This document shows positions 14,084 to 23,980 of a DNA stretch of 29,490 nt, in pieces (within the stretch, counting starts at the first letter, position 1; every line of letters begins with the position of its first letter). The notes under the pieces are model-generated. The model was not told where the DNA came from. It saw nothing but the letters and a program-made list of their open reading frames with translations, and ran no database searches. Origin of the DNA: a virus; the IMG/VR virus record IMGVR_UViG_3300021962_000458, positions 1-29,490 of that record; one strand, given 5' to 3'. Position numbers and translations under genes: made by a program.

Positions 14084-14092
14084 GTGGCACAA

Positions 14093-14127
14093 GGTTGCCT
14101 TGAAGCAACCTGATCTGGGTTTATGTT
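14093..14127 (+). promoter_or_regulatory. hairpin and TATGTT box with TTCGTTC leader
   Basis: GGTTGC (14093-14098) and GCAACC (14105-14110) form a stem. The box TATGTT (14122-14127) and the leader GGTTTCGTTCAAC follow the same plan as at 13937 and 14430. This places the start of the next gene at 14153, not at the ATG inside the -10 box. Confidence 0.48.
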
Positions 14128-14152: not shown

Positions 14153-14356
14153 ATGATTCTCTTCACCGCCACCAACTACGGATGTGTTTTCACTCTCTCC
14201 CAAGAAAATGGGGATGAGTTGTATTATGCTCCGATCTATGCCGATGGTACAGTAAACCTGAAAGAATTCGCCCCAGTGGATATGGATTCTGTGGATATGG
14301 ATGAAATGGAGATCTTTGATATCCGTAACCGCCTTGTGGAAATGTGCCAGGTCTGA
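14153..14356 (+). CDS. small acidic hypothetical protein, 67 aa
   Basis: The start is taken at ATG 14153 in the context ACCGATG, as in many genes to the right; the ATG at 14123 lies inside the -10 box. Beta-rich N part (MILFTATNYGCVFTLSQ) and acidic C part (DMDSVDMDEMEIFDIR). Acidic like its neighbour ardA, but no fold is recognised. Confidence 0.66.
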   Translation: MILFTATNYGCVFTLSQENGDELYYAPIYADGTVNLKEFAPVDMDSVDMDEMEIFDIRNRLVEMCQV

Positions 14357-14368
14357 AACTGGCACACT

Positions 14369-14402
14369 GGGGGTTGCAGGGTCCCCCAAACCCTGCTACA
14401 TT
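14369..14402 (+). promoter_or_regulatory. hairpin-embedded promoter for the ArdA-like gene
   Basis: GGGGG (14369-14373) and CCCCC (14383-14387) enclose a loop that starts with TTGCAG (14374-14379). A 17-base spacer leads to TACATT (14397-14402) with TGC before it. So the -35 lies in the hairpin loop and the -10 is extended. Confidence 0.68.
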
Positions 14403-14429
14403 ACATTCGTACCTGAGGGAACCACCCCA

Positions 14430-14864
14430 ATGTCCATCACCCTGACCGCTTCCTACAAAGAGATGCTCAACGCTGAAACCGTTGAGAAGATTGATGAGTT
14501 GCTGGATGAACAGTATGCTCTGGAAGACATGCTGGAGTTCATTGATGAGTACAATGAGCAAGACTTCGTGTCTTTCTATGAGGAATATGTGCGTTGTGGT
14601 GAGGCAATTGGTTATGAGGCAGTTGATGCCCTGATTGGTGAAATGGGCAGCGTTTGTGATGTTGAGGACTGTGATGAGCGTTATCAGGGTTGCTATGAAA
14701 ATGAGGCAGACTTTGCCGAAGAATTCTATTCTGATCTGTATGATCTTCCCTGTGCAATTGTGGTAGACTGGGAGGCAACTTGGGAGCAGAATCTTCGTTA
14801 TGATTTTACTGCCTGTAATGATGGCACTTCGTATCGTTCGTGCCACATCTTTCGTGATTGCTGA
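14430..14864 (+). CDS. ArdA-like antirestriction protein, 144 aa
   Basis: The start is fixed by the promoter and leader (ACATTCGTACCTGAGG). The protein is very acidic. Its C-terminal half, ECD/ERYQGCYENEADFAEEFYSDLY followed by VDWEATWEQNLRYDF, matches the end of ArdA proteins; the middle (LEFIDEYNEQDFVSFYEEY) fits the central ArdA domain. ArdA is a B-DNA mimic that blocks type I restriction enzymes. It is somewhat shorter than plasmid ArdA (about 165), lacking part of the N-terminal domain. Combined with the phage methyltransferase it indicates strong pressure from host restriction. Confidence 0.76.
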   Translation: MSITLTASYKEMLNAETVEKIDELLDEQYALEDMLEFIDEYNEQDFVSFYEEYVRCGEAIGYEAVDALIGEMGSVCDVEDCDERYQGCYENEADFAEEFYSDLYDLPCAIVVDWEATWEQNLRYDFTACNDGTSYRSCHIFRDC

Positions 14865-14868
14865 TTAA

Positions 14869-14960
14869 AATCTCGTCAAGATATCTCGTCGAGATGTGTG
14901 TGATACATACATCTCGACACACATGACGAGATATATCACACGATGTATAATCTCGTCATG
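14869..14960. repeat. large composite inverted repeat made of ATCTCGTCGAGAT motifs
   Basis: A perfect ATCTCGTCGAGAT lies at 14883-14895, inside a longer structure. ATATCTCGTC (14881-14890) pairs with GACGAGATAT (14925-14934), and ATGTGTGT (14894-14901) pairs with ACACACAT (14917-14924). More half-sites follow at 14871-14876 and 14950-14956. The structure lies between the ArdA-like gene and the tRNA gene. Confidence 0.78.
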
Positions 14961-14968
14961 ATATATGA

Positions 14969-15053
14969 GGGAGCATGGTGGAATCGGTAGACACACCAGA
15001 CTTAAAATCTGTTGACCGTTAAGGTCGTGGGAGTTCAAGTCTCCCTGCTCCTA
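14969..15053 (+). tRNA. tRNA-Leu (anticodon UAA)
   Basis: 85 bases with all arms of a long-variable-loop tRNA. The acceptor GGGAGCA pairs with TGCTCCT (a G-U pair at the end). The anticodon stem CCAGA/TCTGT encloses CTTAAAA with anticodon TAA. A variable arm with GACC/GGTC is present, and the T arm is GGGAGTTCAAGTCTCCC. The 3' CCA is not encoded. tRNA-Leu(UAA) is frequent in T4-like cyanophages, and the AT-rich late genes would use many UUA codons. Confidence 0.95.
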
Positions 15054-15055
15054 TT

Positions 15056-15080
15056 GGGTGATTCGATAACATCATCACCC
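15056..15080 (+). other. hairpin just downstream of the tRNA
   Basis: GGGTGAT (15056-15062) and ATCACCC (15074-15080) form a 7-bp stem 3 bases after the tRNA. There is no T tract, so a processing signal is more likely than a terminator. Confidence 0.55.
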
Positions 15081-15130
15081 ATCATGCGCGAGAACGTTAT
15101 ATAAACTACAAGGTGGATAGGGTAACATAA

Positions 15131-15156
15131 GGCGGGAGTGGTGTCCCGCCTTTTTT
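15131..15156 (+). terminator. rho-independent terminator after the tRNA
   Basis: GGCGGGA (15131-15137) and TCCCGCC (15144-15150) with a 6-base loop, followed by six T. Nothing else is encoded between the tRNA and this terminator. Confidence 0.92.
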
Positions 15157-15158
15157 CT

Positions 15159-15166
15159 TATAAATA
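15159..15166 (+). promoter_or_regulatory. TATAAATA late-promoter consensus without an obvious gene behind it
   Basis: Perfect match to the T4 late promoter, directly after the terminator. Only a 17-codon reading frame follows before stops, so it may make a non-coding transcript or be chance in AT-rich DNA. Confidence 0.45.
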
Positions 15167-15430
15167 AATGCAATTAATTATAATGTGCGAGAGTTCATCC
15201 TATCTCTGGCAAATAAAATAGGAAACAATACATTCGTGACTGATAAGAATATAAAAAACAGGACGATTCCTGATTAGATTCTTGTATTTAAATCTAGTCA
15301 CTTAGGGATCATATCTTTGTGTCTTAAAGTACTTATACTCTCATCTTCATCCTTAGCAAAGCGATTCTAGCAAGATCTTTATACTTTGTCAACCCCCTCT
15401 GTGCCAGTTGGTCTAGTGGCACCATACCCC
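15167..15430. other. apparently gene-free structured stretch
   Basis: No plus-strand frame of credible length. It holds an inverted repeat TGATTAGATT (15271-15280) and AATCTAGTCA (15291-15300), 10 bp with one G-T pair, and a convincing minus-strand promoter at 15364-15392. On the minus strand a 30-codon ORF (15425-15333) exists but begins upstream of that promoter. Confidence 0.5.
15364..15392 (-). promoter_or_regulatory. minus-strand sigma70 promoter of a possible antisense/non-coding RNA
   Basis: On the minus strand, TTGACA (15392-15387), exactly 17 bases, then TAGAAT (15369-15364). Transcription would run left through the structured stretch towards the terminator stem at 15131-15156, which reads as a hairpin on this strand too but with a poor T tract. 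About 200 bases of RNA without a credible ORF. Confidence 0.55.
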
Positions 15431-15459
15431 TTGTGTTCGTGTGGTGTGCGTGCCATACT
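15431..15459 (+). promoter_or_regulatory. TTGTGT-17-CATACT promoter with extended -10
   Basis: TTGTGT (15431-15436), 17 bases, CATACT (15454-15459) preceded by TGC. The leader ACGTTTGTTCCTGAG follows. Same construction as at 16691 and 17657. Confidence 0.6.
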
Positions 15460-15484
15460 ACGTTTGTTCCTGAGAGGCACACCG

Positions 15485-15607
15485 ATGTTTGATGAAATGT
15501 GGCAAGAGATCCAGGATGCCCCTGGTGAGATCTTTGACATTCCCGAACTTCGTGATGAAGAAGATTTCAACATGAATGAATACCTGAACGGTAACTATGA
15601 CTATTGA
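15485..15607 (+). CDS. small acidic protein, 40 aa
   Basis: Start in the context ACCGATG, 25 bases behind the -10 box at 15454. The product (MFDEMWQEIQDAPGEIFDI) is strongly acidic with an Asn/Tyr-rich end. It heads a run of tightly packed genes to 16662. Function unknown. Confidence 0.6.
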   Translation: MFDEMWQEIQDAPGEIFDIPELRDEEDFNMNEYLNGNYDY

Positions 15608-15650
15608 TCTGATCGCTTCAATCGTTGTTCGTTTCTACTTTCACCACTGA
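15597..15650 (+). CDS. possible tiny peptide, 17 aa
   Basis: ATG inside the end of the previous gene; its stop overlaps the next ATG (TGATGA). The peptide MTIDLIASIVVRFYFHH is hydrophobic. It may be a translational bridge that couples the genes on both sides. Weak evidence. Confidence 0.3.
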   Translation: MTIDLIASIVVRFYFHH

Positions 15651-15799
15651 TGACTCTCACCACATTAACATTTGAGGAACTGGATGCGTTGCTGGCGCTG
15701 ATAGAGTTTCATGATGATTGGGATGAGGTTAGTGAAATCGTGGGGTGTAATGTTTCCGCACTCTATGATAAACTCTCTGAAATGCGTGATGAGGTCTGA
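15650..15799 (+). CDS. small helical protein, paralogue-like to the 9864 gene, 49 aa
   Basis: Reads FEELDALLALIEFHDDWDE then VGCNVSALYDKLSEM. This matches the plan of the 67-residue protein at 9864 (EIGVILSALQNL, ENADEN, VPALYNKLYSLWEQM). Overlaps on both sides suggest coupling. Function unknown. Confidence 0.64.
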   Translation: MTLTTLTFEELDALLALIEFHDDWDEVSEIVGCNVSALYDKLSEMRDEV

Positions 15800-16038
15800 T
15801 GCAATTCCAAGTTACTGCAATCGAGTTTGATTTTGATGATAAGTGTCCCTATTGTGGTGATCCTCAATCCCCAGAACACGATGCAGAATGTGATGGATTC
15901 TTGGAGTTTGATTATGTCACTCAAGCAACAATCGGTCAAATCTGGGAGGCAGATGATGAAGATGATCTAATTGAAGAGATCACATCTGCCTACGGTTGGT
16001 GCATCAAATCTATTGATTATCGTCACGTTCTGAAATGA
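15799..16038 (+). CDS. small zinc-binding-type protein, 79 aa
   Basis: ATG overlaps the upstream stop. A possible metal site C16-P-Y-C19-G, H27, C31 lies within the first 31 residues (DKCPYCGDPQSPEHDAEC). An acidic region (WEADDEDDLIEEIT) and a strand follow. Rubredoxin-like knuckle; partner unknown. Confidence 0.68.
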   Translation: MQFQVTAIEFDFDDKCPYCGDPQSPEHDAECDGFLEFDYVTQATIGQIWEADDEDDLIEEITSAYGWCIKSIDYRHVLK

Positions 16039-16208
16039 CTGACCTTCGTTACTCTACAGGCACAGAACTTGAGGAGTTTCTGTATGAGAAGTGCAGGCAA
16101 GATCCTGACCTTCTCGCTACTATCATCAATGAGTATGTGTGCTCTTTGAGTGATAGCAAACTCATTGAACTTGAAGACTTCCTCACCAACAACTTTGGAG
16201 ACGATTGA
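16035..16208 (+). CDS. small helical protein, 57 aa
   Basis: ATGA overlap with the gene before and after. Acidic helices (LEEFLYEKCRQDPDLLATI), two Cys, C terminus FGDD. No motif recognised. Confidence 0.65.
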   Translation: MTDLRYSTGTELEEFLYEKCRQDPDLLATIINEYVCSLSDSKLIELEDFLTNNFGDD

Positions 16209-16477
16209 TGTACCGCACTCTTTCTGAACTTCGTGATTCAATCAACCAAATGATTGATAGACAAGGTGAGGACGCAGTTTGTGCTGCGTTTGTATTCACT
16301 CAAGATGATGTATTTGAGATCGTTGGTGAAAACTGCGATGAAGTGCGTTTCTCCAAAGAACTCACTGAAGATGTGCTCTGTGATGTAGGAGGTTCCGACT
16401 ACATTTACGAACAGATTGGTGAGGTGATTGATGATTCAATCCGTCTCCGTAAGAAACTGCCCCTCTACGCTAACTGA
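16208..16477 (+). CDS. small acidic protein, 89 aa
   Basis: ATG overlaps the previous stop. Helical N part (LSELRDSINQMIDRQGEDA), an acidic middle with three Cys, and a basic C-terminal tail (RLRKKLPLYAN). No family recognised. Confidence 0.66.
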   Translation: MYRTLSELRDSINQMIDRQGEDAVCAAFVFTQDDVFEIVGENCDEVRFSKELTEDVLCDVGGSDYIYEQIGEVIDDSIRLRKKLPLYAN

Positions 16478-16479
16478 TT

Positions 16480-16662
16480 ATGAACCGCTCCGAACTTCAA
16501 GATCAAATGGTTCAGCAAATGCTGGACGATATGGATCTCAAAACAATGACCTGCCTTTGCTATGATTATCTGATGGAGGGTTATGATAAGTATTCTGATG
16601 AAGAATTGACCGAAGAGGTTAATCAATACTATCCTGAACTGCTGGAGGAATCTGCAGACTAA
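16480..16662 (+). CDS. small acidic helical protein, 60 aa
   Basis: The ATG lies 2 bases after the previous stop. Met/Asp-rich helix (QDQMVQQMLDDMDLKTM), then YLMEGYDKYSDEELTEEV. Last gene of the 15485-16662 run. Confidence 0.65.
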   Translation: MNRSELQDQMVQQMLDDMDLKTMTCLCYDYLMEGYDKYSDEELTEEVNQYYPELLEESAD

Positions 16663-16690
16663 GACAGTTGGACAGGTGGCACACACCCCC

Positions 16691-16719
16691 TTGTGCTGCC
16701 CCCTGATCCGTGCCATACT
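16691..16719 (+). promoter_or_regulatory. TTGTGC-17-CATACT promoter, hairpin upstream
   Basis: TTGTGC (16691-16696), 17 bases, CATACT (16714-16719) with TGC before it. The -35 sits in the right arm of an imperfect GGCACACA/TTGTGCTGCC hairpin. Confidence 0.62.
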
Positions 16720-16740
16720 GATTACATCAACAGGAAACCG

Positions 16741-17637
16741 ATGAAGAACCTCCACCAAGAGCACCCCGAAGACACCATCCTCACGGGTGACCTGAGCGTG
16801 CTGGACTGGTTCGTGACGCCTGGCACCCTGAGCGTTAAGATCGACGGAGCACCCGCAATCGTGTGGGGGATTGATCCTGCGACTGGTACGTTCTTCGTGG
16901 GCACCAAAGCAGTCTTCAACAAAAAGAAGATTCGTATTGCACACAATCATCAGGAGATTGATCAACACTATGAGGGCAACGTTGCAGACATTCTGCACAC
17001 TTGCTTTGACATTCTGCCCCGTACTGAGACAATCTATCAGGCAGAGTTCATCGGGTTCGGTGGATCTGATGAGTACAAATCCAACCTGATTACGTATCAG
17101 TTCCCTGAGATTGTCACTCAAACTATTATCATCGCACCCCATACCTGCTATTATGCTGAGCACGATCTTCGTGATGCTGTTGCTATGCCTGACCGTGCTA
17201 CGTGGAATGACACTGACACGATCAAATTCGTGAAACCTGATGCCTACATTCTGCACAATCAGGAATCGTTCGCTGATGTTCAAGAGGTATGCAACTTCGC
17301 CCGCCAGATGTCAACCACCGTACAGTTCGTGACTAATGCACAAGCGGCAAAGATTAAAGTTGCAATTAACGCCTGCATCCGCGAACAGCGTGAGGTTGAG
17401 GATGTTGCATTTGATTGTGACCCTAACCTGATTCGTTTGTGGAAGTTGGTGAAGTCAATCAAAGAGGATTGCCTATTCTTGTGCCGCAATAATGGTCCTG
17501 CAGCATACATCGGGCAGGATCGGATTGATGCCGAAGGTTACACAATGACCAATGAGTTTGGTATGTTCAAACTGGTCAATCGTGAGGTATTCTCCTACCA
17601 TAATTTCAACAGCGGGCGCTTTCAGTGTGCCGCCTGA
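16741..17637 (+). CDS. ligase-fold nucleotidyltransferase-like protein, 298 aa
   Basis: Start in ACCGATG after its own promoter. K33-I-D-G in LSVKIDGAPAIVWG is motif I of covalent nucleotidyltransferases (DNA/RNA ligases, capping enzymes), where Lys forms the AMP adduct. GTFFVGTKAVFN resembles motif III and YQAEFIGFG an acidic motif IIIa or IV. TIKFVKPDAY with two Lys could be motif V. No OB-fold or adenylation accessory domain is evident. It may seal or tag nucleic acid; the substrate is not readable. Codon use begins to shift to C-ending codons here. Confidence 0.68.
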   Translation: MKNLHQEHPEDTILTGDLSVLDWFVTPGTLSVKIDGAPAIVWGIDPATGTFFVGTKAVFNKKKIRIAHNHQEIDQHYEGNVADILHTCFDILPRTETIYQAEFIGFGGSDEYKSNLITYQFPEIVTQTIIIAPHTCYYAEHDLRDAVAMPDRATWNDTDTIKFVKPDAYILHNQESFADVQEVCNFARQMSTTVQFVTNAQAAKIKVAINACIREQREVEDVAFDCDPNLIRLWKLVKSIKEDCLFLCRNNGPAAYIGQDRIDAEGYTMTNEFGMFKLVNREVFSYHNFNSGRFQCAA

Positions 17638-17650
17638 TGTAGTGTCACAA

Positions 17651-17685
17651 GGGGGGTTGTGCTGCCCCCCATCCCGTGCCATACT
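17651..17685 (+). promoter_or_regulatory. hairpin-embedded promoter for the HNH gene
   Basis: GGGGGG (17651-17656), loop TTGTGCTG (17657-17664) and CCCCCC (17665-17670). TTGTGC in the loop is the -35, 17 bases follow, then CATACT (17680-17685) with TGC. The leader ACGTATGTTCCTGAGG comes next. Confidence 0.72.
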
Positions 17686-17712
17686 ACGTATGTTCCTGAG
17701 GGATTCGCCCTT

Positions 17713-18135
17713 ATGACAACACTTGCTCAGCAGATGAAAGAGAAGTTCTTTGCCGAAGGGCACGAACTTCCTGACTGCGTCAATCACGGTTGCGACCGTA
17801 AAGTATTAGTTCGTGAGTGGAAGTACTGGTCATTCAAGTCTGAATGTTCCCGTTGTACTGATGCTCGCAAAAAGGGTAAAACCATACCTGGCGTTACAAT
17901 TCACAAAAAGAACTTTTGTGAGAATGTAGACGGTCAATTGGGTTGGGTTTGCCCTGTCCCCCGCGATGGATGGGTTGGGTTTGAGAATAGTTTGGACCTG
18001 GACCACATTGACGGCGATCACCACAACAATGTGCCCGCCAATGTCAAGACCTACTGCAAACTCTGCCACGGCAAAAAGTCACTGATCAACGGTGATTGCA
18101 ACAGTAACAAACAATCCCGCCGCACGATTGACTGA
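17713..18135 (+). CDS. HNH endonuclease, 140 aa
   Basis: The start ATG 17713 fits the promoter. The C-terminal half has the HNH core: LDLDHIDGDHHNN, then NVKTYCKLCHGKKS, with catalytic His, Asn and a Cys pair for zinc. The N-terminal part has two more Cys pairs (CVNHGC and CSRC) that may form a separate zinc knuckle. It may be a free-standing homing nuclease or a DNA nicking enzyme. Intact length, ATG-overlapping membrane gene behind it. Confidence 0.85.
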   Translation: MTTLAQQMKEKFFAEGHELPDCVNHGCDRKVLVREWKYWSFKSECSRCTDARKKGKTIPGVTIHKKNFCENVDGQLGWVCPVPRDGWVGFENSLDLDHIDGDHHNNVPANVKTYCKLCHGKKSLINGDCNSNKQSRRTID

Positions 18136-18251
18136 TGAAAGTTCTCACCTTCGCCTTTACCCTGATGCTAGGATGGGCGGCGATTCGTGCAATGGACACC
18201 ATTGCCTACATTGAAACGACAGATCCTACTCCATCCCTGCAGGCACAATAA
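18135..18251 (+). CDS. small single-TM protein, 38 aa
   Basis: ATG overlaps the HNH stop (TGATG). One hydrophobic segment (VLTFAFTLMLGWAAIRAM), then a short polar tail. Ends just before a terminator. Confidence 0.55.
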   Translation: MKVLTFAFTLMLGWAAIRAMDTIAYIETTDPTPSLQAQ

Positions 18252-18259
18252 CTTTAATC

Positions 18260-18284
18260 AGGGCGCAATCCGCGCCCTTTTTTT
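18260..18284 (+). terminator. rho-independent terminator
   Basis: AGGGCGC (18260-18266), loop AATCC, GCGCCCT (18272-18278) and a run of T. Marks the left end of the GC-rich micro-gene array. Confidence 0.92.
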
Positions 18285-18462
18285 ATACTTTTCTTTTTTT
18301 TTATTTCATGGCAGGGGGCGTGGCGACCGTTTTCGTCATCAGGGCTACCCCGCCCCTCCTTCGCTTGTGTCCGTATTATACGCATCAGGATGCCCGCAAA
18401 ACCTGCATCGTGTGCCACTTTTCGGACTGTCCATGAACCCGTCCGCTGACCCGCTCATGCCC

Positions 18463-18492
18463 TATACTGATCTCAGTTCACAAGGCAACCCA
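18463..18492 (+). promoter_or_regulatory. TATACT box and CTCAGTTCAC leader
   Basis: TATACT (18463-18468) followed by GATCTCAGTTCACAAGG, first copy of the third leader family. Between the terminator at 18284 and this box about 180 bases hold no gene I can support. Confidence 0.6.
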
Positions 18493-18732
18493 ATGCGCCT
18501 CAAGCAAGTGACCACCACCAGCACCGAAGTGGAACTGGCAGACGGCACCTGCGTGCTGTTCTCCTACCAGACCCCTGTCGCCGCCCTGGTGCCTGGCAAG
18601 GGTTGGATTCGCACCGCCACCAAGTGGAGCGTGACCACCTCTAAGCACATTAACCGCTGGCTAGCAGAGAACTGCGGCGGTGAAGTGGCAACCGTGCCAC
18701 AATGGGAACTGGACCAACTGGTGGCGTTCTGA
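18493..18732 (+). CDS. small hypothetical protein, 79 aa
   Basis: Start fixed by the leader. A beta-rich N part (LKQVTTTSTEVELADGTCVLF), then TPVAALVPGKGWIRT and TKWSVTTSKHINRWL. I recognise this layout from small phage proteins in which a strand-rich domain ends with a helix, but it has no known function. Codons end mostly in C or G, unlike the left part of the window. Confidence 0.72.
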   Translation: MRLKQVTTTSTEVELADGTCVLFSYQTPVAALVPGKGWIRTATKWSVTTSKHINRWLAENCGGEVATVPQWELDQLVAF

Positions 18733-18746
18733 GGGGCGCCACCCCC

Positions 18747-18774
18747 TATAATTCTCTCACACACAATCAACCCG
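18747..18774 (+). promoter_or_regulatory. TATAAT box and TCTCTCAC leader
   Basis: TATAAT (18747-18752) follows the GGGGCGCCACCCCC hairpin-like stretch behind the previous stop. Leader TCTCTCACACAC. Confidence 0.6.
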
Positions 18775-18909
18775 ATGCGCTTCGAAGTTCGTTACAGGAC
18801 CCCCTACGGTTCGCAGCAGTGGCGTTCACAATTCTTCTCAACCCGTGAGGAGGCACAGCGTATGGTAGAATTCTACCGTTCCTGCGGTTCCCCCGCTCAC
18901 ATCGCCTGA
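18775..18909 (+). CDS. very small basic/aromatic protein, 44 aa
   Basis: Start in CCGATG. MRFEVRYRTPYGSQQWRS is a beta-hairpin-like start, followed by a helix TREEAQRMVEFYRSCG. This is the beta-beta-alpha plan of many small cyanophage proteins. Own promoter. Confidence 0.62.
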   Translation: MRFEVRYRTPYGSQQWRSQFFSTREEAQRMVEFYRSCGSPAHIA

Positions 18910-18915
18910 CCTGCT

Positions 18916-19002
18916 ATGCTGACTGGCGTGTTCTTCCTGATCGGTTATGCTATGGGGGCAGGACACCTCCTGCTCCTACAGCGCCTTCTCAACCGCCGCT
19001 GA
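18916..19002 (+). CDS. tiny membrane peptide, 28 aa
   Basis: The ATG lies 6 bases after the previous stop, inside the TGCTATGCT stretch that would be a -10 box in the sister cassettes. A hydrophobic segment (GVFFLIGYAMGAGHLLLL) is followed by a basic end. Probably translated by coupling. Modest evidence. Confidence 0.42.
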   Translation: MLTGVFFLIGYAMGAGHLLLLQRLLNRR

Positions 19003-19007
19003 CGTGC

Positions 19008-19039
19008 TACAATTCTCTCAGTTCACAAGCAATCGACCG
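19008..19039 (+). promoter_or_regulatory. extended -10 TGC-TACAAT and CTCTCAGTTCAC leader
   Basis: TACAAT (19008-19013) with TGC before it, then the TCTCTCAGTTCACAAGC leader and ACCGATG. No -35. Confidence 0.65.
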
Positions 19040-19240
19040 ATGCCCAACCTGGAAACCGATCTGATTAATGCCTGGAACGACACCATGGCAGAACTGACCC
19101 CTGAGGAGCGTAAGATCCTTGCTCAGGGCACCGCTCAGGATTGGGCAAAGGCAATCGCTGAATGTGCCGCTGATCCTACATTCTGGGCTCAAATCGGCAC
19201 CGCTTTTGTCGACGGTTTTGTGAGGGGTGCCACTCGCTGA
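19040..19240 (+). CDS. small helical protein, 66 aa
   Basis: Start in ACCGATG. Acidic N half (ETDLINAWNDTMAELTPEE), Ala-rich middle (WAKAIAECAADP) and a Gly/Phe tail (AFVDGFVRGATR). No motif recognised. Confidence 0.65.
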   Translation: MPNLETDLINAWNDTMAELTPEERKILAQGTAQDWAKAIAECAADPTFWAQIGTAFVDGFVRGATR

Positions 19241-19251
19241 ACCGTCCACTA

Positions 19252-19285
19252 GGGGGCACAGACCCCCTTCCCGACCCCCTATACT
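19252..19285 (+). promoter_or_regulatory. G/C hairpin and TATACT box
   Basis: GGGGG (19252-19256), loop CACAGA, CCCCC (19263-19267), then TATACT (19280-19285) and the GATCTCAGTTCAC leader. The loop sits where the -35 belongs but is not consensus. Confidence 0.6.
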
Positions 19286-19311
19286 GATCTCAGTTCACAC
19301 CACACCACACC

Positions 19312-19476
19312 ATGACCACCGCAACCCGCCTCACCGCCTCCGAAGCACGCTGCGCGATCTACGACCTGGCAGACCTCTATTCCTGGGAGACTGTTGCCCG
19401 TGAGATGATCTGCAACATGAGTGGCGATCAGGCACGGGAGTTTGTGGAAGACTTCCAGCGCCTCTATGCCGACTGA
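19312..19476 (+). CDS. small helical protein, 54 aa
   Basis: An Ala-rich helix (LTASEARCAIYDLADLYS) is followed by VAREMICNMSGDQAREF and an acidic end. Two Cys. Own promoter and leader. Function unknown. Confidence 0.62.
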   Translation: MTTATRLTASEARCAIYDLADLYSWETVAREMICNMSGDQAREFVEDFQRLYAD

Positions 19477-19490
19477 GGCACTGGCACAAG

Positions 19491-19525
19491 GGGGCATCCT
19501 GCCTCCTCCCCCGACCCTGTAGACT
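19491..19525 (+). promoter_or_regulatory. G/C hairpin and TAGACT box
   Basis: A GGGG run (19490-19494) and CCCCC (19508-19512) enclose a pyrimidine-rich loop. TAGACT (19520-19525) follows, then TCTCTCAGTTCACAAGC. Confidence 0.55.
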
Positions 19526-19551
19526 TCTCTCAGTTCACAAGCAACCGACCG

Positions 19552-19737
19552 ATGACCACCAAAGTGTACGCCGTGATCGCTGGAATTGACTATGAGGGTG
19601 AGGTCTTTGAGACCCTCCGCCTGTTCGATTGCTTTTCCACTGCTGACGCCTACCTGAAGCACCTGGGGGAAGAATACGACTACGCTAAGATGGACACCCG
19701 CGAAGTGTGCATGGAATCCGCCTACGCGGTCGCCTGA
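19552..19737 (+). CDS. small acidic protein, 61 aa
   Basis: Beta-type start (KVYAVIAGIDYEGEVFETL), then a helix with STADAYLKHLGEEYDYAKM. A compact alpha/beta micro-protein of unknown function. The following -10 box overlaps its stop codon. Confidence 0.65.
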   Translation: MTTKVYAVIAGIDYEGEVFETLRLFDCFSTADAYLKHLGEEYDYAKMDTREVCMESAYAVA

Positions 19738-19800
19738 TACAATGGGAGCGGGTGCGCCCTTAAAGACGCCCAACCACAAACCACAATCCCAAATTCTAAC
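19738..19800 (+). promoter_or_regulatory. TACAAT box with a long leader
   Basis: TACAAT (19738-19743) abuts the stop codon. The 57-base leader contains GGGTGCGCCC and ACGCCC and lacks the CTCTCAG motif, so this cassette differs from its neighbours. Confidence 0.45.
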
Positions 19801-19932
19801 ATGACCCGCGAACTCGCTCTCTCCCTGCTCCGCTCTGGCAACGACGGCGCTCAGATCCTGCAGATCCTGGAGACGATCGCCGCCCCTGAGGATGGCACCG
19901 CTGAACCGACCGCCGAAGAAATCCAATTCTGA
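19801..19932 (+). CDS. very small acidic protein, 43 aa
   Basis: MTRELALSLLRSGNDGAQIL has a helix-turn-helix-like rhythm, followed by ILETIAAPEDGTAEPTAEE. Small enough that function cannot be guessed; clean codon bias and its own leader support expression. Confidence 0.58.
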   Translation: MTRELALSLLRSGNDGAQILQILETIAAPEDGTAEPTAEEIQF

Positions 19933-19973
19933 TAGTGGCACAACGGAGGGGGACACCCCTTCCCTTTTGCCTC

Positions 19974-20002
19974 TATACTGATCACAGATCAGACAACCAC
20001 CG
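19974..20002 (+). promoter_or_regulatory. TATACT box and leader behind a G/C hairpin
   Basis: GGGGG ACA CCCC lies just upstream, TATACT at 19974-19979, then GATCACAGATCAGAC, a variant leader. Confidence 0.55.
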
Positions 20003-20197
20003 ATGACCGAAGACCGCATCCTCTCCCTCTACGAAGACCTGCTCTGCCTGGCAGAGGCAATCGCCAATGAGATGTATGGTTGCGACCTGGACCGCCTGGA
20101 CCCTGAGGAACTGGAATGGTACGGTTCCCGCCTGACGGAGGACAACCTAGAAGAATTGGCAAACGACCTTGCCGCCGCTGCCTGGTTCGCCTACTGA
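20003..20197 (+). CDS. small acidic helical protein, 64 aa
   Basis: Start in ACCGATG. Highly acidic and Leu-rich (EDRILSLYEDLLCLAEAI, then LDRLDPEELEWYGSRL), likely an all-helical bundle. The charge would suit binding to a basic host protein, but nothing specific is seen. Confidence 0.66.
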   Translation: MTEDRILSLYEDLLCLAEAIANEMYGCDLDRLDPEELEWYGSRLTEDNLEELANDLAAAAWFAY

Positions 20198-20202
20198 CCT
20201 GC

Positions 20203-20232
20203 TACAATACTCTCAGATCACACCACAACGCC
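20203..20232 (+). promoter_or_regulatory. extended -10 TGC-TACAAT and leader
   Basis: TGACCTGC-TACAAT (20203-20208), then ACTCTCAGATCACACC. The TGA of TGACCTGC is the stop of the previous gene. Confidence 0.65.
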
Positions 20233-20418
20233 ATGATCGACTTCCGCGCCATCCGCGACTACGGCATCGCCGCCCTGGTGATCATCGCCATCGCAGTCGG
20301 TTACGCTGTGCTACTGAACACCGCAAACGCTAAGATTGAAGCGAAGTGCGCCGCGAACGGGGGACAGGTGCTTGTGACACCTGGAGATGTGTCTAAGTGC
20401 CTCCAACCTGCCCGCTGA
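20233..20418 (+). CDS. small membrane-anchored protein with two Cys, 61 aa
   Basis: A single TM segment (about residues 11-28, GIAALVIIAIAVGYAVLL) follows a charged N terminus. The C-terminal domain of about 30 residues (KCAANGGQVLVTPGDVSKC) carries two Cys and would lie in the periplasm. Own promoter. Confidence 0.65.
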   Translation: MIDFRAIRDYGIAALVIIAIAVGYAVLLNTANAKIEAKCAANGGQVLVTPGDVSKCLQPAR

Positions 20419-20423
20419 CCTGC

Positions 20424-20451
20424 TACAATACTCTCAACCGCAACGCCCCCG
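20424..20451 (+). promoter_or_regulatory. extended -10 TGC-TACAAT and leader
   Basis: TACAAT (20424-20429) preceded by TGACCTGC, as at 20203; leader ACTCTCAACCGC. Confidence 0.62.
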
Positions 20452-20787
20452 ATGCTGCTCACCTCAGGACAGAAGCAACGCCCCCGCCTGGCACAGCAGA
20501 TCTACCGCTTTATGCTGGATCAGGAACCGCTGCTAGGCGCCGCCACCGTCACGGTTCACCACCGCCGCCTGACCGCTGAGGGTGTGGTAGGATGGCAGCA
20601 GCAGGAGGATGCCCACGACTTCCTGATCGACATTGACCGCGACCTGAACCGCAAAGACTACATCCTCACCCTGATCCATGAGTTGGTACACTGCCGCCAA
20701 ACGCTGGAAGGGATGACCTGCGACATCCTGCGGGAGATGGAGGCAGACCACCTGGAATCCGAATACTACGATCGCTTCACCGCCTGA
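20452..20787 (+). CDS. putative HEXXH zinc metallopeptidase-like protein, 111 aa
   Basis: HELVH (residues 76-80) sits in a helix (ILTLIHELVHCRQ). It is followed 17-21 residues later by EMEADHLE, which offers Glu97 or Glu102 as a third zinc ligand, the gluzincin or SprT-like plan. Much shorter than known peptidases, so it may be a minimal domain. The largest gene of the array. The sequence before the motif has a strand pattern (TVTVHHRRLTAEG). Activity is inferred from the motif alone. Confidence 0.62.
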   Translation: MLLTSGQKQRPRLAQQIYRFMLDQEPLLGAATVTVHHRRLTAEGVVGWQQQEDAHDFLIDIDRDLNRKDYILTLIHELVHCRQTLEGMTCDILREMEADHLESEYYDRFTA

Positions 20788-20792
20788 CCTGC

Positions 20793-20822
20793 TATAATTC
20801 TCTGAGATCAACCGACCACCCC
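20793..20822 (+). promoter_or_regulatory. extended -10 TGC-TATAAT and leader
   Basis: Perfect TATAAT (20793-20798) preceded by TGACCTGC; leader TCTCTGAGATCAACC. Confidence 0.68.
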
Positions 20823-21011
20823 ATGTTCATCACCAACGACACCGCCGCCAACGACCCCGCCTGCCAGGCAGCGATGAAAGCATACGCCGCCCAACTGCAG
20901 CGGGAGGAGGAGCAGCGTCAAGCGATCCGCGATGCTCATGCCGCTGGTGACCTGGCGGCAATCGCCAAGTGGGGACGGACTAGCAACTGGTACATCAGCG
21001 ACCGCGACTGA
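20823..21011 (+). CDS. small helical protein, 62 aa
   Basis: An Ala/Gln/Glu-rich long helix (MKAYAAQLQREEEQRQAIR) makes a coiled coil likely. The C terminus, KWGRTSNWYISDRD, is aromatic. No motif. Confidence 0.62.
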   Translation: MFITNDTAANDPACQAAMKAYAAQLQREEEQRQAIRDAHAAGDLAAIAKWGRTSNWYISDRD

Positions 21012-21025
21012 GCGGCAGGACCGAC

Positions 21026-21053
21026 TAAGATACTCTCAAGCGCAACGCCACCG
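21026..21053 (+). promoter_or_regulatory. TAAGAT box and leader
   Basis: TAAGAT (21026-21031) and ACTCTCAAGCGC in the position of the sister elements; the weakest -10 of the array. Confidence 0.45.
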
Positions 21054-21287
21054 ATGACCAACCTCACCGCTTCCTTCTGGTATCTGTCCTGCCTCACCGA
21101 CGCGCAACTGGAAGACGCCTACAACGGCGCCAACCTGACCTGCGACGCCGACCTCTCCGATGCGATCCTCCTGGAGATTCTGAAGAACCGCCCCGCCTTC
21201 TGCCCCCAAGACTACGACCTCCAGTGGGAACTGGAAGACTGGGGATGGAACGGCGGCGCCACTCAAGAGGATCGGGACGCCCGCTGA
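21054..21287 (+). CDS. small acidic protein, 77 aa
   Basis: Start in ACCGATG. Contains LTDAQLEDAYNGANLTCDA and ILLEILKNRPAFCPQDY, then a Trp-rich acidic end (LQWELEDWGWNGG). Helical core with three Cys. Function unknown. Confidence 0.65.
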   Translation: MTNLTASFWYLSCLTDAQLEDAYNGANLTCDADLSDAILLEILKNRPAFCPQDYDLQWELEDWGWNGGATQEDRDAR

Positions 21288-21298
21288 TCTGGCACAAC

Positions 21299-21334
21299 GG
21301 GGGGTCGACAACCCCCCACCCGACCGTCTACAAT
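21299..21334 (+). promoter_or_regulatory. hairpin-embedded promoter
   Basis: GGGGGG (21299-21304), loop TCGACAA, CCCCCC (21312-21317). The loop holds TCGACA (21305-21310), 18 bases before TACAAT (21329-21334). The TCTCTCAGTTCAAAC leader follows. Confidence 0.7.
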
Positions 21335-21357
21335 TCTCTCAGTTCAAACAAACGACC

Positions 21358-21522
21358 ATGACCCGCTACGACGTGATCTGCCCCTCCGCTCCTTGGGAGA
21401 ACACCACCACCGATCAGGACCGCGCATGGGACCTGTGCCTCTCCCTCTCTGAAGAATACGGATACGCTCAGGTCCGCTGCAATGGGGTGATCATCGGAGA
21501 CTACACTGACGGGGGGATCTGA
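21358..21522 (+). CDS. small protein with three Cys, 54 aa
   Basis: MTRYDVICPSAPWENTTTD, then a helix (AWDLCLSLSEEYGYAQ) and a strand (VRCNGVIIGDYTDGG), a beta-alpha-beta micro-fold. Own promoter; its stop begins the 24-base repeat. Confidence 0.62.
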   Translation: MTRYDVICPSAPWENTTTDQDRAWDLCLSLSEEYGYAQVRCNGVIIGDYTDGGI

Positions 21523-21543
21523 CCCCTACGGGGCGGGTTGACC
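21520..21543 (+). repeat. 24-base direct repeat, copy 1
   Basis: Bases 21520-21543 are identical to 22020-22043, exactly 500 bases later. Each copy starts with the stop codon of the upstream gene, holds CCCCTACGGGG and ends in TTGACC. Confidence 0.9.
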
Positions 21544-21568
21544 TCCCGCCCCCCTTATGGACTACAAT
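21530..21568 (+). promoter_or_regulatory. hairpin-embedded promoter
   Basis: GGGGCGGG (21530-21537), loop TTGACCT, CCCGCCCC (21545-21552), a perfect 8-bp stem. The TTGACC in the loop is 19 bases from TACAAT (21563-21568); the leader is TCTCTCAGTTCACC. Confidence 0.78.
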
Positions 21569-21591
21569 TCTCTCAGTTCACCACCCCCACC

Positions 21592-21780
21592 ATGAACGCC
21601 ACCTTCGCTGAGATCCTCTGGAACTGCACCGACCCCAGCAACGGCACCATCCCCTGGAGCACCGCCTGCCAGGCAGCAAAGGAGCACGGGCTCTGGGATG
21701 ACTTCCGCACCGACTATGGGGTGACCGCCAAATTCGGTCCCGTCGATACGGGTGAGTTCCTTGTGTGGTTGGGGTATTGA
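21592..21780 (+). CDS. small protein, 62 aa
   Basis: N part MNATFAEILWNCTDPSNGT, middle ACQAAKEHGLWDDFRTD, C part KFGPVDTGEFLVWLGY. The middle resembles a small helix-turn unit. The last codons GGGGTATTGA form part of the next promoter hairpin. Confidence 0.63.
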   Translation: MNATFAEILWNCTDPSNGTIPWSTACQAAKEHGLWDDFRTDYGVTAKFGPVDTGEFLVWLGY

Positions 21781-21805
21781 CCCCCCACCCCTGACCCTGT
21801 AGAAT
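21771..21805 (+). promoter_or_regulatory. promoter and hairpin overlapping a stop codon
   Basis: GGGG (21771-21774), loop TATTGA, CCCC (21781-21784). TTGACC (21777-21782) contains the TGA stop of the upstream gene and is 17 bases from TAGAAT (21800-21805). The leader differs (TCCAGAGC). Confidence 0.7.
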
Positions 21806-21830
21806 TCCAGAGCAAACCGCAACCGACCCG

Positions 21831-22022
21831 ATGACCACCGCCATCACCCCCGACTTCCAGTTCCGCGTCGTCATCCCCACCGCCGATGGGCTGGAGGTGC
21901 TGGGGTACTTCCGCTCTCTGCTCCGTGCCGCCACCTTCCAGCAGGCAATCATCCTGGAGGACGGTCTGAAGGTGTCGGTGGAGTGGTTCCGCAACGGTCA
22001 CTGGTGGAGTGACTGGGGCTGA
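21831..22022 (+). CDS. small protein, 63 aa
   Basis: A beta strand (FQFRVVIPTADGLEVLGYF), a helix (SLLRAATFQQAIILEDG) and a strand with Trp (KVSVEWFRNGHWWSDWG). A beta-alpha-beta micro-fold similar in plan to 18775 and 21358. Function unknown. Confidence 0.66.
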   Translation: MTTAITPDFQFRVVIPTADGLEVLGYFRSLLRAATFQQAIILEDGLKVSVEWFRNGHWWSDWG

Positions 22023-22043
22023 CCCCTACGGGGCGGGTTGACC
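22020..22043 (+). repeat. 24-base direct repeat, copy 2
   Basis: Identical to 21520-21543. It again runs from the stop codon of one gene into the -35 of the next. Confidence 0.9.
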
Positions 22044-22067
22044 GATCCGCCCCCTACCGACTACAAT
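22030..22067 (+). promoter_or_regulatory. hairpin-embedded promoter
   Basis: GGGGCGG (22030-22036) and CCGCCCC (22047-22053) enclose GTTGACCGAT. TTGACC (22038-22043) is 18 bases from TACAAT (22062-22067). Leader TCTCTCAGTTCACC. Confidence 0.78.
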
Positions 22068-22091
22068 TCTCTCAGTTCACCACCCGAACCG

Positions 22092-22268
22092 ATGATCCTC
22101 TCCCAAGCAACCCGCCTCACCGATCGCCAGACCGTGTGGGTCGCCCGCAAGAATGACGACACCCCCTTCTACAAACTGACCACTGACTACGGCGTGCCCG
22201 CTACCGTCATCGCTGGACAGTTCGCTGATGTGTTCTCCTCTGACGTGGCGGCGCTCCGCCTGGACTGA
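22092..22268 (+). CDS. small protein, 58 aa
   Basis: Start in ACCGATG. MILSQATRLTDRQTVWVAR, then DDTPFYKLTTDYG and an Ala/Val-rich end. A small beta-rich fold is likely. Unknown function. Confidence 0.63.
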   Translation: MILSQATRLTDRQTVWVARKNDDTPFYKLTTDYGVPATVIAGQFADVFSSDVAALRLD

Positions 22269-22282
22269 TTCGTGAGGGGGGT

Positions 22283-22317
22283 GGGGTTCGTGCCCTGCCC
22301 CTGATTCGTGCTACAAT
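22283..22317 (+). promoter_or_regulatory. hairpin and extended -10 TGC-TACAAT
   Basis: GGGG (22283-22286), loop beginning TTCGTG, CCCC (22298-22301), then TGC-TACAAT (22312-22317) and the TCTCTCAGTTCAC leader. The loop hexamer is 19 bases from the -10. Confidence 0.62.
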
Positions 22318-22348
22318 TCTCTCAGTTCACACCTCACCCCATCTGATT

Positions 22349-22591
22349 ATGGCAAAGGCAATCGGAACTGTTCGCGCCTCTGACCTGAACATCAAAGGAC
22401 AGACCGTTCGCTGCAGCAGCGGTGGCGGCATGACCTTTACCCGTGCGCGTGGTCTTGGCGCCGTTATGGTAGAGGACCTTGACTCTGCCATCGCCAATGC
22501 TAAGGCGATCCACCGTGCTGATCGTATCGCTGCCGCCCGTGATCGTTTGGCGGATCGCGTAGACCATTCGCACCTGGCAGTCCGCTTCTGA
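22349..22591 (+). CDS. small basic protein, 80 aa
   Basis: Last gene of the array. Basic, Arg/Ala-rich (KAIHRADRIAAARDRLADR) with a Gly-rich loop (CSSGGGMTFTRARGLG). It could bind nucleic acid. Its start in GATTATG lacks the ACCG context of its neighbours. Confidence 0.64.
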   Translation: MAKAIGTVRASDLNIKGQTVRCSSGGGMTFTRARGLGAVMVEDLDSAIANAKAIHRADRIAAARDRLADRVDHSHLAVRF

Positions 22592-22601
22592 GGACAGATG
22601 T

Positions 22602-22620
22602 GGGGGTGGCACACACCCCC
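22602..22620 (+). terminator. terminator-like hairpin at the end of the array
   Basis: GGGGGTG (22602-22608), loop GCACA, CACCCCC (22614-22620), followed only by TTGCG. Strong stem but poor T tract. Confidence 0.55.
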
Positions 22621-22827
22621 TTGCGTGGGTTCGTGCGATGGGCACGCCCCCGTCGGGGGGGCGGTCGGGCGGCGCCGCCGTGTATATAAAATCGCAAACT
22701 ACCCTAAACTATAAAGTGTTACCCAAGCGAGATCTCTATAACACTCAAAAACAAAAAAATTTTCCCATAAAAAAATTACTCAAAAGGTCGTTTATGATAT
22801 ATAAAAATAAAAATATTCTCTAAGCGC
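22621..22827. other. composition boundary, no gene seen
   Basis: GC-rich inverted runs (CCCCCGTCGGGGG and GGGCGGCGCCGCC) up to about 22680 give way within a few bases to very AT-rich DNA. No supported gene; A-rich tracts and TATATAAAA stretches lie in the right half and may hold the promoter of the next gene. Confidence 0.6.
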
Positions 22828-23001: not shown

Positions 23002-23027
23002 AAAATACATAGATAGTGTGTTATAAT
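22998..23027 (+). promoter_or_regulatory. TTGAAA-18-TATAAT promoter with extended -10
   Basis: TTGAAA (22998-23003) includes the TGA stop of the AbrB-like gene; 18 bases later TATAAT (23022-23027) with TGT before it. Drives the glycosyltransferase gene. Confidence 0.7.
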
Positions 23028-23049
23028 ATTGATGTAAACATCTTAACTT

Positions 23050-23805
23050 ATGGCTAAAGGATTTACAGTAAAAGCAAAAACGCCAATCCCACAAAAGGAA
23101 GAAGAGTGGGACTATGATTTGGCAAGAGAAATGGTGAGGGGAAAATCCATCATTTTCTGTCTTCCAGGTAGAGGAGTTTCATACACCTATCTGAAAAGCT
23201 TTGTACAACTTTGTTTTGATCTTGTACAAGCAGGAGCGAGCATCCAAATCTCGCAGGACTATTCATCGATGGTAAATTTTGCCAGATGCAAATGTTTAGG
23301 TGCGAATGTACTGCGAGGACCCGATCAGCTTCCTTGGGACGGCAAATTAAATTATGACTGGCAACTTTGGATTGACAGTGACATTGTTTTCAGTACCGAA
23401 AAGTTCTGGCAATTAATCCTTCTGGACAAAGATATTGCAGCTGGATGGTACTGTACAGAAGACGGGCACACAACTTCGGTTGCACACTGGTTAGACGAAG
23501 AAGATTTTCGTGGTAATGGTGGTGTAATGAATCATGAAACAATTGAAAGTATCTCAAAGCGCCGCAAGCCATTTACGGTTGACTATACTGGTTTCGGATG
23601 GCTTCTGATTAAACACGGAGTCTTTGAGCACTCCGAAATGAAATATCCCTGGTTTGCACCAAAAATGCAAGTCTTCGAATCTGGGGAAGTTCAGGATATG
23701 TGTGGAGAAGATGTGAGTTTCTGTTTGGATGCAAAGGAAGCAGGATTTGAAATTTGGTGCGATCCTCGCATCAGAGTTGGTCACGAAAAAACAAGAATCA
23801 TTTGA
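23050..23805 (+). CDS. GT-A type glycosyltransferase, 251 aa
   Basis: Nucleotide-sugar fold: KSIIFCLPGRGVSY (first strand), SQDYSSMVNFAR, the DxD-type LWIDSDIVF (metal/UDP site, D109-D111), and near residue 220 GEDVSFCLDAKEAGFEIW followed by CDPRIRVGHE. This is the ED-x-x-F-C acceptor signature of family-2-like enzymes. Full length. It may glycosylate phage DNA or virion or host surface sugars; the dehydratase and cupin at the left edge fit a sugar theme. No secretion signal, so it acts in the cytoplasm. Confidence 0.82.
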   Translation: MAKGFTVKAKTPIPQKEEEWDYDLAREMVRGKSIIFCLPGRGVSYTYLKSFVQLCFDLVQAGASIQISQDYSSMVNFARCKCLGANVLRGPDQLPWDGKLNYDWQLWIDSDIVFSTEKFWQLILLDKDIAAGWYCTEDGHTTSVAHWLDEEDFRGNGGVMNHETIESISKRRKPFTVDYTGFGWLLIKHGVFEHSEMKYPWFAPKMQVFESGEVQDMCGEDVSFCLDAKEAGFEIWCDPRIRVGHEKTRII

Positions 23806-23815
23806 AATAAAACAA

Positions 23816-23977: not shown

Positions 23978-23980
23978 AAC

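Follow-up and report, generated by a model that had tools for sequence, protein, structure and literature searches.

Between the tiny genes of a GC-rich island in the virus record IMGVR_UViG_3300021962_000458 (positions 1-29,490, the whole 29,490-base stretch being called the window here), we found a recurrent unit in which a GC-rich hairpin is nested in a predicted early promoter. Judged from its genes, the window is a fragment of a T4-like cyanophage. The unit probably serves as a composite gene boundary that works like the promoter-early stem-loops (PeSLs) of T4-like phages, which PMC4503421 presents as units for modular shuffling: it would end or protect the RNA of the upstream gene and start the next gene, and its core would be the point of exchange. 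Comparison across related loci shows that the hairpin arms covary as in RNA, that the hairpin holds a fixed position and goes with the upstream gene, that neighbours are exchanged across the unit and that the next ATG follows at a recurrent spacing.

Read from 5' to 3', the unit would begin with the stop codon of a tiny gene, in many cases followed by GGCACA, and continue with a GC-rich stem-loop and an early promoter of the sigma70 type, its -35 position coinciding with the hairpin loop. A near-constant -10/start segment would come next, and then a leader of ~18 nt, rich in C and A and mostly lacking a Shine-Dalgarno word, up to the next ATG.

A family of hairpin-promoter units

An earlier reading of the window from its sequence alone (the sequence-only reading) had picked out seven G/C stem-loops. 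All seven are present within 6 bases of where it had placed them, with predicted energies of -7.0 to -20.2 kcal/mol, and the spacing of 17-19 nt that it gave between a -35-like hexamer and the -10 holds in every one (7/7). They do form a family, but a larger one: five in-register stems had been overlooked (14092, 18720, 19251, 19489 and 19945), and the constant part is not the hairpin, of which the layout is nonetheless kept, but the -10 plus the next 12 nt. This core, TACAATTCTCTCAGTTCA, is laid out as the -10, 6 nt, a presumed start A and 5 nt. The hexamers proposed as -35 boxes were of unequal quality, with 5/6 matches to TTGACA at 21305, 21538, 21777 and 22038, 3/6 for TTGCAG and TTGTGC, and 2/6 for TTCGTG (22287). 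At 14369 the hairpin exists, but the -10 is TACATT (14397) and a stem at 14376-14396 outscores the one named. Units are divided below into class I, with a core as at 21329, and class II, with a -10 of the CATACT or TACATT type followed by ACRT and a TGAG-containing leader. The features of the window are as follows.

14092-14111, + strand: hairpin AGGTTGC(CTTGAA)GCAACCT, whose arms are not simple runs of G and C; -10 near 14121 degenerate (unit picked by eye); gene 14153-14356
14361-14365, + strand: GGCAC element preceding the -10 by 36 nt; further copies, 35-38 nt before their -10, at 14086, 15418, 16678, 19483, 19937 and 21291
14369-14387, + strand: hairpin GGGGG...CCCCC of the sequence-only reading; TTGCAG 14374-14379; higher-scoring stem 14376-14396; -10 TACATT 14397; gene 14430-14864
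17651-17670, + strand: class II hairpin GGGGGGT(TGTGCT)GCCCCCC; TTGTGC 17657-17662, 17 nt spacer, -10 CATACT 17680; gene 17713-18135
18000-22640, + strand: GC-rich island of tiny + strand genes; 15 units listed, 9/15 with a strong in-register stem
18720-18743, + strand: hairpin GGTGGCGTTC(TGAG)GGGCGCCACC, overlooked earlier; spans the upstream stop (18730); -10 TATAAT 18747; gene 18775-18909
19251-19268, + strand: hairpin AGGGGG(CACAGA)CCCCCT, overlooked earlier; -10 TATACT 19280; gene 19312-19476
19489-19507, + strand: hairpin AGGGGGCA(TCC)TGCCTCCT, overlooked earlier; -10 TAGACT 19520; gene 19552-19737
19945-19963, + strand: hairpin GGAGGGGG(ACA)CCCCTTCC, overlooked earlier; -10 TATACT 19974; gene 20003-20197
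20203-20220, + strand: unit lacking a strong in-register stem, with the stop codon of the preceding gene 8 nt ahead of its -10
21299-21317, + strand: hairpin GGGGGGT(CGACA)ACCCCCC; -35-like TCGACA 21305-21310 extending into the loop; -10 21329; gene 21358-21522
21329-21346, + strand: class I core (core match), -10 TACAAT plus TCTCTCAGTTCA
21530-21552, + strand: hairpin GGGGCGGG(TTGACCT)CCCGCCCC; -35-like TTGACC 21538-21543 in the loop; -10 21563; gene 21592-21780
21771-21784, + strand: hairpin GGGGT(ATTG)ACCCC, overlapping the stop of the upstream gene (21778); -35-like TTGACC 21777-21782; -10 TAGAAT 21800; gene 21831-22022
22030-22053, + strand: hairpin GGGGCGGGTT(GACC)GATCCGCCCC; -35-like TTGACC 22038-22043 partly in the stem; -10 22062; gene 22092-22268
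22277-22302, + strand: hairpin GGGGGTGGGGT(TCGT)GCCCTGCCCCT, without a convincing -35; -10 22312; gene 22349-22591

Exact copies of the class I core of 21329 lie at 19008, 21563, 22062 and 22312, copies with 2-3 mismatches at 19520, 20203 and 20793, and copies with 4 mismatches at 18463 and 19280. GC content per kb is 52-62% in the island, at ~18.0-22.6 kb, and 27-48% in the rest of the window; unit genes average 59%. Tiny + strand open reading frames (ORFs) run through the island one after another, most with their own -10 box and constant start segment; no unit of the hairpin-promoter type is listed before the ORF at 19801.

We counted a stem as strong and in register when it scored at least 14 and its loop centre fell at -24 to -15 relative to the -10. 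Among 20 hand-listed units 11 have such a stem, compared with 1.89 +/- 1.33 in 500 shuffle sets (maximum 8) and with 1 of 40 displaced windows; this list is biased, as it contains units chosen by the earlier reader for their hairpins, plus 14121, added partly for its hairpin. Units collected by the core or the class II pattern alone still gave 7 of 14 in register against 1.35 +/- 1.02 (maximum 5 in 500 shuffles). Seven of these 14 thus join stem-loop and predicted early promoter in one intergenic unit, the compact form of a PeSL. The 14 include a further class II pattern match outside the 20-unit list, at 13905, ~32 nt before the ORF at 13937. Those of the 20 without a strong in-register stem (9/20) are 14397, 15454 and 16714 and, in the island, 18463, 19008, 20203, 20424, 20793 and 21026, the last with a weak 4-pair stem. 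The mean folding z over the 20 window units is only -1.0 (four of the -10 positions used were 1-3 nt off), and the case rests on register and on covariation across phages.

The family extends well beyond the window. An exact core scan of viral contigs found at least 119 stretches, and two further scans found 37 and 76; the set searched for the family comprised 203 sequences, the window and 202 loci. These hold 744 core matches with at most 4 mismatches, compared with 8-44 for five permuted cores. Near-identical units, units near a contig end and units containing N were dropped before counting, and class I fell from 701 to 249 non-redundant units (under ~71% identity across the 45 bases upstream). 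Class I was gathered by its core, so conservation of the core is partly circular; the hairpin played no part in the gathering. An ORF beginning with ATG follows 244 of the 249 units, at a median of 30 nt from the first base of the -10 and with a median length of 63 aa. The presumed first transcribed bases, AGTTCA, are nearly constant, in part by construction of the search, and the leaders are C/A-rich (for example 21341-21357 of the window), with a Shine-Dalgarno-like word in 24 of 244. At 131 of 138 loci with two or more units all units lie on one strand, with a median spacing of 305 nt. In six large records (three with identical matched words) the units fall within about 3.5 kb or less, apart from single 3-mismatch hits in five of them. 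By their clustering, and with ORFs of median 63 aa, the units lie in hyperplastic regions among small variable genes, as is typical of PeSLs.

Class II has 46 non-redundant members, with TTG at -23 in 29 and GGCAC at -36 +/- 1 in 34. The same GGCAC(A) stands 36 +/- 1 nt before the -10 in 29 of 98 class I units with an intergenic gap (class I-A, defined below), and it holds its position in some units where it falls in the coding end of the upstream gene. An outer GGCAC/GTGCC stem was rejected as a general feature: because GGCAC keeps its place with no complement present, we treat it as a separate element, possibly an activator site.

Several searches bear on where else the core occurs. A host origin was rejected, given that the genome collection yielded 4 exact hits, one in a short Pseudanabaenaceae contig and none in an entry titled as a picocyanobacterium. 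A 75-nt unit compared with phage records gave only weak matches, in unrelated phages, and S-CRM01 gave no match to the one class I form and the one class II core tried. In S-SRM01 an annotated gene is preceded, at a distance of 30 nt, by a unit whose loop is GCAA (89,320).

Selection on the hairpin and its position

Upstream stop codons of class I units cluster near -45, -25 and -10. We accordingly use class A for the 98 units with an intergenic gap, B for a further 74 and C for the 71 in which the upstream gene runs up to the -10; six have no assigned upstream stop. Mean folding z is -1.69 in A, -0.70 in B and -0.42 in C, compared with -0.07 to -0.46 in the flanks. Class A has a strong stem in 82 of its 98 units, compared with 22 of 98 at a displaced position; the corresponding figures in class B are 34 and 17 of 74.

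The sequence-only reading had argued for selection on structure with a conserved layout, and the pairing of the two arms bears this out. When right arms were dealt to other units, in sets filtered to less than about 71% identity, class I-A arms scored -12.51 with their own partners and -9.15 (sd 0.24) when swapped; the other class I arms gave -7.68 and -6.45 (sd 0.19), and class II arms -6.71 and -4.92 (sd 0.46). The layout is indeed kept: in I-A stems the distance between loop centre and -10 has an interquartile range of 1.9 nt. Class II segments fold with a mean z of -1.61 (flanks -0.10 and -0.24), and 29 have a stem in any register, 20 of them with G on the left arm and 9 with C.

It could be argued that GC-rich intergenic runs of G before runs of C simply fold by chance, with their shared position reflecting recent common descent. 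The stems are dominated by G-C pairs and the folding z in the window is modest (-1.0), as such a by-product would have it. Yet dinucleotide shuffles, displaced windows and arm swaps between units of less than about 71% identity all fail to reproduce the stems, and the loop-proximal pairs include all four Watson-Crick types. Chance from base composition was rejected on the shuffles and arm swaps, and we consider the by-product account as a whole very improbable.

The substitutions in the stems are of the kind expected in RNA. Single interior mismatches in the strict in-register sets of classes I and II are G-U in 15 cases and A-C in 4 (p=0.01), with 16 and 7 in stems of any register; a larger, less filtered set gave 21 G-U and 6 A-C (p=0.003, units treated as independent). 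Loops of the GNRA, UNCG or CUUG type make up 6 of 19 four-base loops, where 2.0 are expected. The excess of G-U together with the stable tetraloops suggests an RNA read from the upstream gene, pointing to a hairpin that acts at the RNA level. Rfam finds the tRNA alone in 14.0-22.8 kb, and a known RNA family was rejected as the identity of the hairpins. That most of them lack T tracts, as had been noticed on first reading, proved to be general: at least 5 T in the next 8 nt occur after none of 62 I-A stems, and at least 4 T after 3 of the 62. Two ordinary-looking terminators with hairpin and T tract, at 15129-15152 and 18260-18278 of the window, contrast with the unit hairpins.

A -35 placed in the loop, the feature by which the units were first recognized, is not the rule that organizes them. 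A sequence of the TTG or TCGAC type is found at the loop of 36 of 136 in-register class I stems and 14 of 24 class II stems. In I-A, 11 of the 12 stems with TTG have their loop at -23 to -16, as do 49 of the 69 that have no -35-like box, and since most stems keep their position with no such box, we rejected the -35 in the loop as the organizing rule. The evidence for a sigma70-like promoter is a -10 that is present by construction of the search and the TTG at -23 in most class II units. A -35 box and a TG-extended -10 are nominally anticorrelated in I-A (p=0.02), with no such effect when all units are taken together (p=0.14).

Exchange of genes and a probable composite boundary

The hairpin seems to belong to the gene that precedes it. 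In 12 families in which the upstream gene is shared (at least 80% identity) and the downstream gene differs, hairpin segments are 0.77 identical, compared with 0.63 in 9 families in which the downstream gene is shared and 0.60 for random pairs (both gaps at least 33 nt). As the hairpin goes with the upstream gene, exchange appears, from these alignments, to take place between the hairpin and the ATG, where the constancy of the core makes the exact point impossible to place.

Unit genes also change neighbours readily. In pairs of unit genes 70-97% identical, the family of the upstream neighbour is common to 14-34% (family averages 22-37%), compared with 56-66% (family averages 64-76%) for AT-rich control ORFs in the same identity range; the test drew on those 293 of 684 genes that have another unit gene as their upstream neighbour. 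At 97% identity or more, neighbours are kept in unit genes and controls alike. By sequence comparison, and with one mixed control, gene exchange has its junctions at the unit, as described for PeSLs.

In a composite boundary of this type, RNA from the upstream gene would end in the hairpin, which would mark or protect that 3' end and probably cut read-through, all without a U tract. In DNA, the same bases would carry the promoter of the next gene. Host RNA polymerase would start each cassette separately, and the constant core would offer a short homology for the exchange of cassettes without breaking their expression. We infer here promoter activity and its start site, the use of host RNA polymerase, the formation of RNA 3' ends, and homologous recombination as the cause of exchange.

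Several observations weigh against a boundary that both ends one transcript and starts the next. In class C, strong stems are about as frequent as at displaced positions (20 of 71 and 19, respectively; mean z -0.42), and since hairpins there are weak or absent, the promoter does not require one. Most class I units lack a recognizable -35, with at least 4/6 of TTGACA in 64 of 249, compared with 9% and 18% at two control offsets. In the neighbour test, small control ORFs of 35-60% identity lose neighbours about as often as unit genes, and the first control we used, all ORFs of at least 100 aa of any GC content, shares neighbours in 0.27-0.31 of pairs at 70-97% identity, near the unit genes. Its family averages, 0.39-0.54 against 0.22-0.37 for unit genes, support exchange more weakly; from the mixed GC of its members it was probably confounded by spurious ORFs in GC-rich DNA, and we replaced it by the AT-rich ORFs. 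Two further points, the position of the hairpin and its lack of a U tract, each lead to a different account of the unit.

Over the 82 I-A stems the loop is held more tightly to the -10 (median absolute deviation 1.0 nt) than to the stop codon (2.0 nt), which a pure 3'-end element does not predict. The position of the hairpin is thus somewhat linked to the promoter, and a -35 in the loop alone does not explain it. It might be, then, that the hairpin is a promoter element at the DNA level, either extruded or a palindromic protein site, that presents or hides the -35 and so tunes initiation; the tighter hold on the -10, found also in many units with no -35-like box, is what such an element would show. 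We think this quite unlikely. A palindrome in DNA does not predict the excess of G-U over A-C (15:4), stem sequences that differ from unit to unit argue against a single protein site, the -10 and leader stay similar in units that lack a strong hairpin, and it is the upstream gene, not the downstream one, that the hairpin goes with.

The missing U tract is the other difficulty, given that the T-tract hairpins at 15129 and 18260 suggest that ordinary terminators are carried as well. Hairpins without U tracts could act solely to protect mRNA 3' ends or to guide RNase processing of a polycistronic early transcript, with no termination, and we regard this as a reasonable possibility, if not the one we would expect to prove correct. 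What speaks for termination is that nearly all units lead into an ORF at a fixed spacing from their own -10/start segment, which a processed polycistron would not need, and that the PeSL hairpins of RB49 are reportedly effective terminators.

Cyanobacterial hosts lack Rho, and according to PMC13289151 most transcription units of S. elongatus end elsewhere than at canonical intrinsic terminators. Insulation by the hairpins, as first proposed, is plausible because the formation of RNA ends in such hosts is itself unsettled according to the same paper. A more specific conjecture, which we hold to be unlikely, is that the hairpin is a transcript-end signal independent of both U tract and Rho that is active solely at its fixed position over the next promoter, with the loop ~20 nt before the -10, so that end and start are coupled. 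If true, such a coupled signal would possibly be one of the undescribed termination routes inferred for cyanobacterial hosts. Whichever mechanism applies, more than 100 natural variants of a hairpin without a U tract, from 158 in-register stems among 411 segments, are now at hand for asking how RNA ends form in cyanobacteria that lack Rho.

Known systems, cultured phages and neighbouring features

Arbiol in 2010 and Comeau in 2014 are said to have described PeSLs as composite promoter/terminator cassettes of T4-like phages, and encapsidated mini-circles reportedly form between neighbouring units. The proposal of the sequence-only reading that the unit had not been described as a family is not supported, given this likeness: PeSLs are known for T4-like phages (PMC4503421), and we found hairpins nested in early promoters of RB49, KVP40 and nt-1. 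We compared nesting over parts of these three genomes and of T4. In RB49, 16 of 24 chosen gaps (45-125 nt) combine a promoter matching at least 9/12 with a hairpin, whose loop lies at about -9 in 7 and at 0 to +1.5 in 9. The loop lies near -17/-18, over the -35, in 5 of 21 early promoters examined in nt-1 and in 2 of 19 in KVP40, with 6 T and 3 T, respectively, after the stem in examples. In the parts of T4 examined no loop position dominates. A word search with one class II core gave no hit in RB49, KVP40, nt-1 or T4, and a search of the same kind with one class I form gave a single 3-mismatch hit each in T4 and RB49 and none in KVP40 or nt-1.

Like a PeSL, the cyanophage unit joins a stem-loop with a predicted early promoter of the sigma70 type, lies between small variable genes and is a site of gene exchange. 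It differs in that its loop lies at ~-20, whereas that of RB49 PeSLs lies in the -35/-10 spacer (~-9) or around the -10; in that the -35, if present, is at the loop rather than in an arm, many units having none; and in its lack of a T tract, its GC-rich stems and genes and the constant core downstream of the hairpin. We therefore suggest, by analogy, that it would work like a PeSL, and make no claim of common descent. What is new is the arrays of hairpin-promoter units without U tracts in cyanophages, including the cultured S-PM2, as a variant of a boundary known from T4 relatives. Among the papers listed, in a coverage with few subscription journals, PMC4503421 alone joins PeSLs with cyanophages. 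Sigma70-like early promoter motifs are known in S-PM2 and Syn9, according to PMC2984593.

S-PM2 (NC_006820) carries ~11 units of the same family in an island of 50-60% GC at 21.5-25.0 kb, ~2 kb upstream of gp25. The pattern gave 12 hits, one of them probably spurious, with 5 in register compared with 1.13 +/- 0.96 in shuffled sequence, where the maximum over 300 sets was also 5. As in the window, where the island sits ~3 kb upstream of a baseplate-wedge gene, a GC-rich array of units precedes baseplate-wedge genes (gp25/gp6). In PMC4503421 the S-PM2 ORFanage is described as lacking the PeSL density seen elsewhere and PeSLs are judged unlikely; the array at 21.5-25.0 kb adjoins that ORFanage. 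Behind units of this locus (L224) lie seven unannotated ORFs, at 21570-21758, 21830-22027, 22097-22264, 23012-23215, 23263-23466, 23503-23718 and 23789-24058, three of which are overlapped by the annotated opposite-strand genes p067 and p070. The family thus points to genes missing from the S-PM2 annotation. Members occur in the cultured phages S-PM2 and S-SRM01, and public strand-specific RNA-seq data on S-PM2d infection (E-MTAB-5840, cited in PMC5931967) would allow a first test.

Two other known elements invite comparison. Morons of lambdoid phages are single ORFs that differ in GC content from the remainder of the genome and have promoter signals and terminator-like ones at their flanks (PMC1524935). 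Unit genes, at 59% GC, are likewise distinct from the phage core, but they stand in arrays with one common promoter core and are exchanged across it, not inserted in isolation, which suggests, on sequence grounds, a role for homology rather than the non-homologous recombination of morons. Like an intrinsic terminator, the unit has a GC-rich RNA hairpin, which begins at a median distance of 13 nt from the first base of the stop codon (in-register class A stems); unlike one, it has no U tract (0 of 62 with at least 5 T in 8 nt). Integron attC sites and N4-type DNA-hairpin promoters may be further candidates for comparison.

Our results suggest how T4-like cyanophages may keep a fast-exchanged reservoir of tiny, mostly uncharacterized genes expressible, each gene being its own transcription module with a boundary that doubles as exchange point. 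Proteins of the island gave no above-cut-off match to a family of known function (12 scanned with Pfam and 11 with PHROGs, ORFs 19801, 21358 and 21831 lying outside the scan); one had a sub-threshold Pfam match to DUF6782, a putative metallopeptidase. Class II genes outside the island include an HNH-endonuclease-like protein and a sub-threshold ArdA-like protein. The 144-aa protein at 14430-14864, behind a unit, is 67% identical to an S-PM2 protein annotated 'anti-restriction' and scores 17.8 bits against Pfam ArdA, below the cut-off of 27; judging from this protein, the cassettes may include anti-defence genes.

Elsewhere in the window, the right end holds baseplate-wedge genes. The gene found at 16.7 kb has homologues in 458 phage records, mostly cyanophages, the best being the freshwater S-SRM01. 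A homing-endonuclease-like gene (GIY-YIG/HNH PHROGs) lies on the minus strand at 12259-13110. The DNA of the single tRNA-Leu matches 26 phage records, 23 of them named Synechococcus, and directly upstream of this tRNA, at 14866-14964, are repeats of the ATCTCGTC type.

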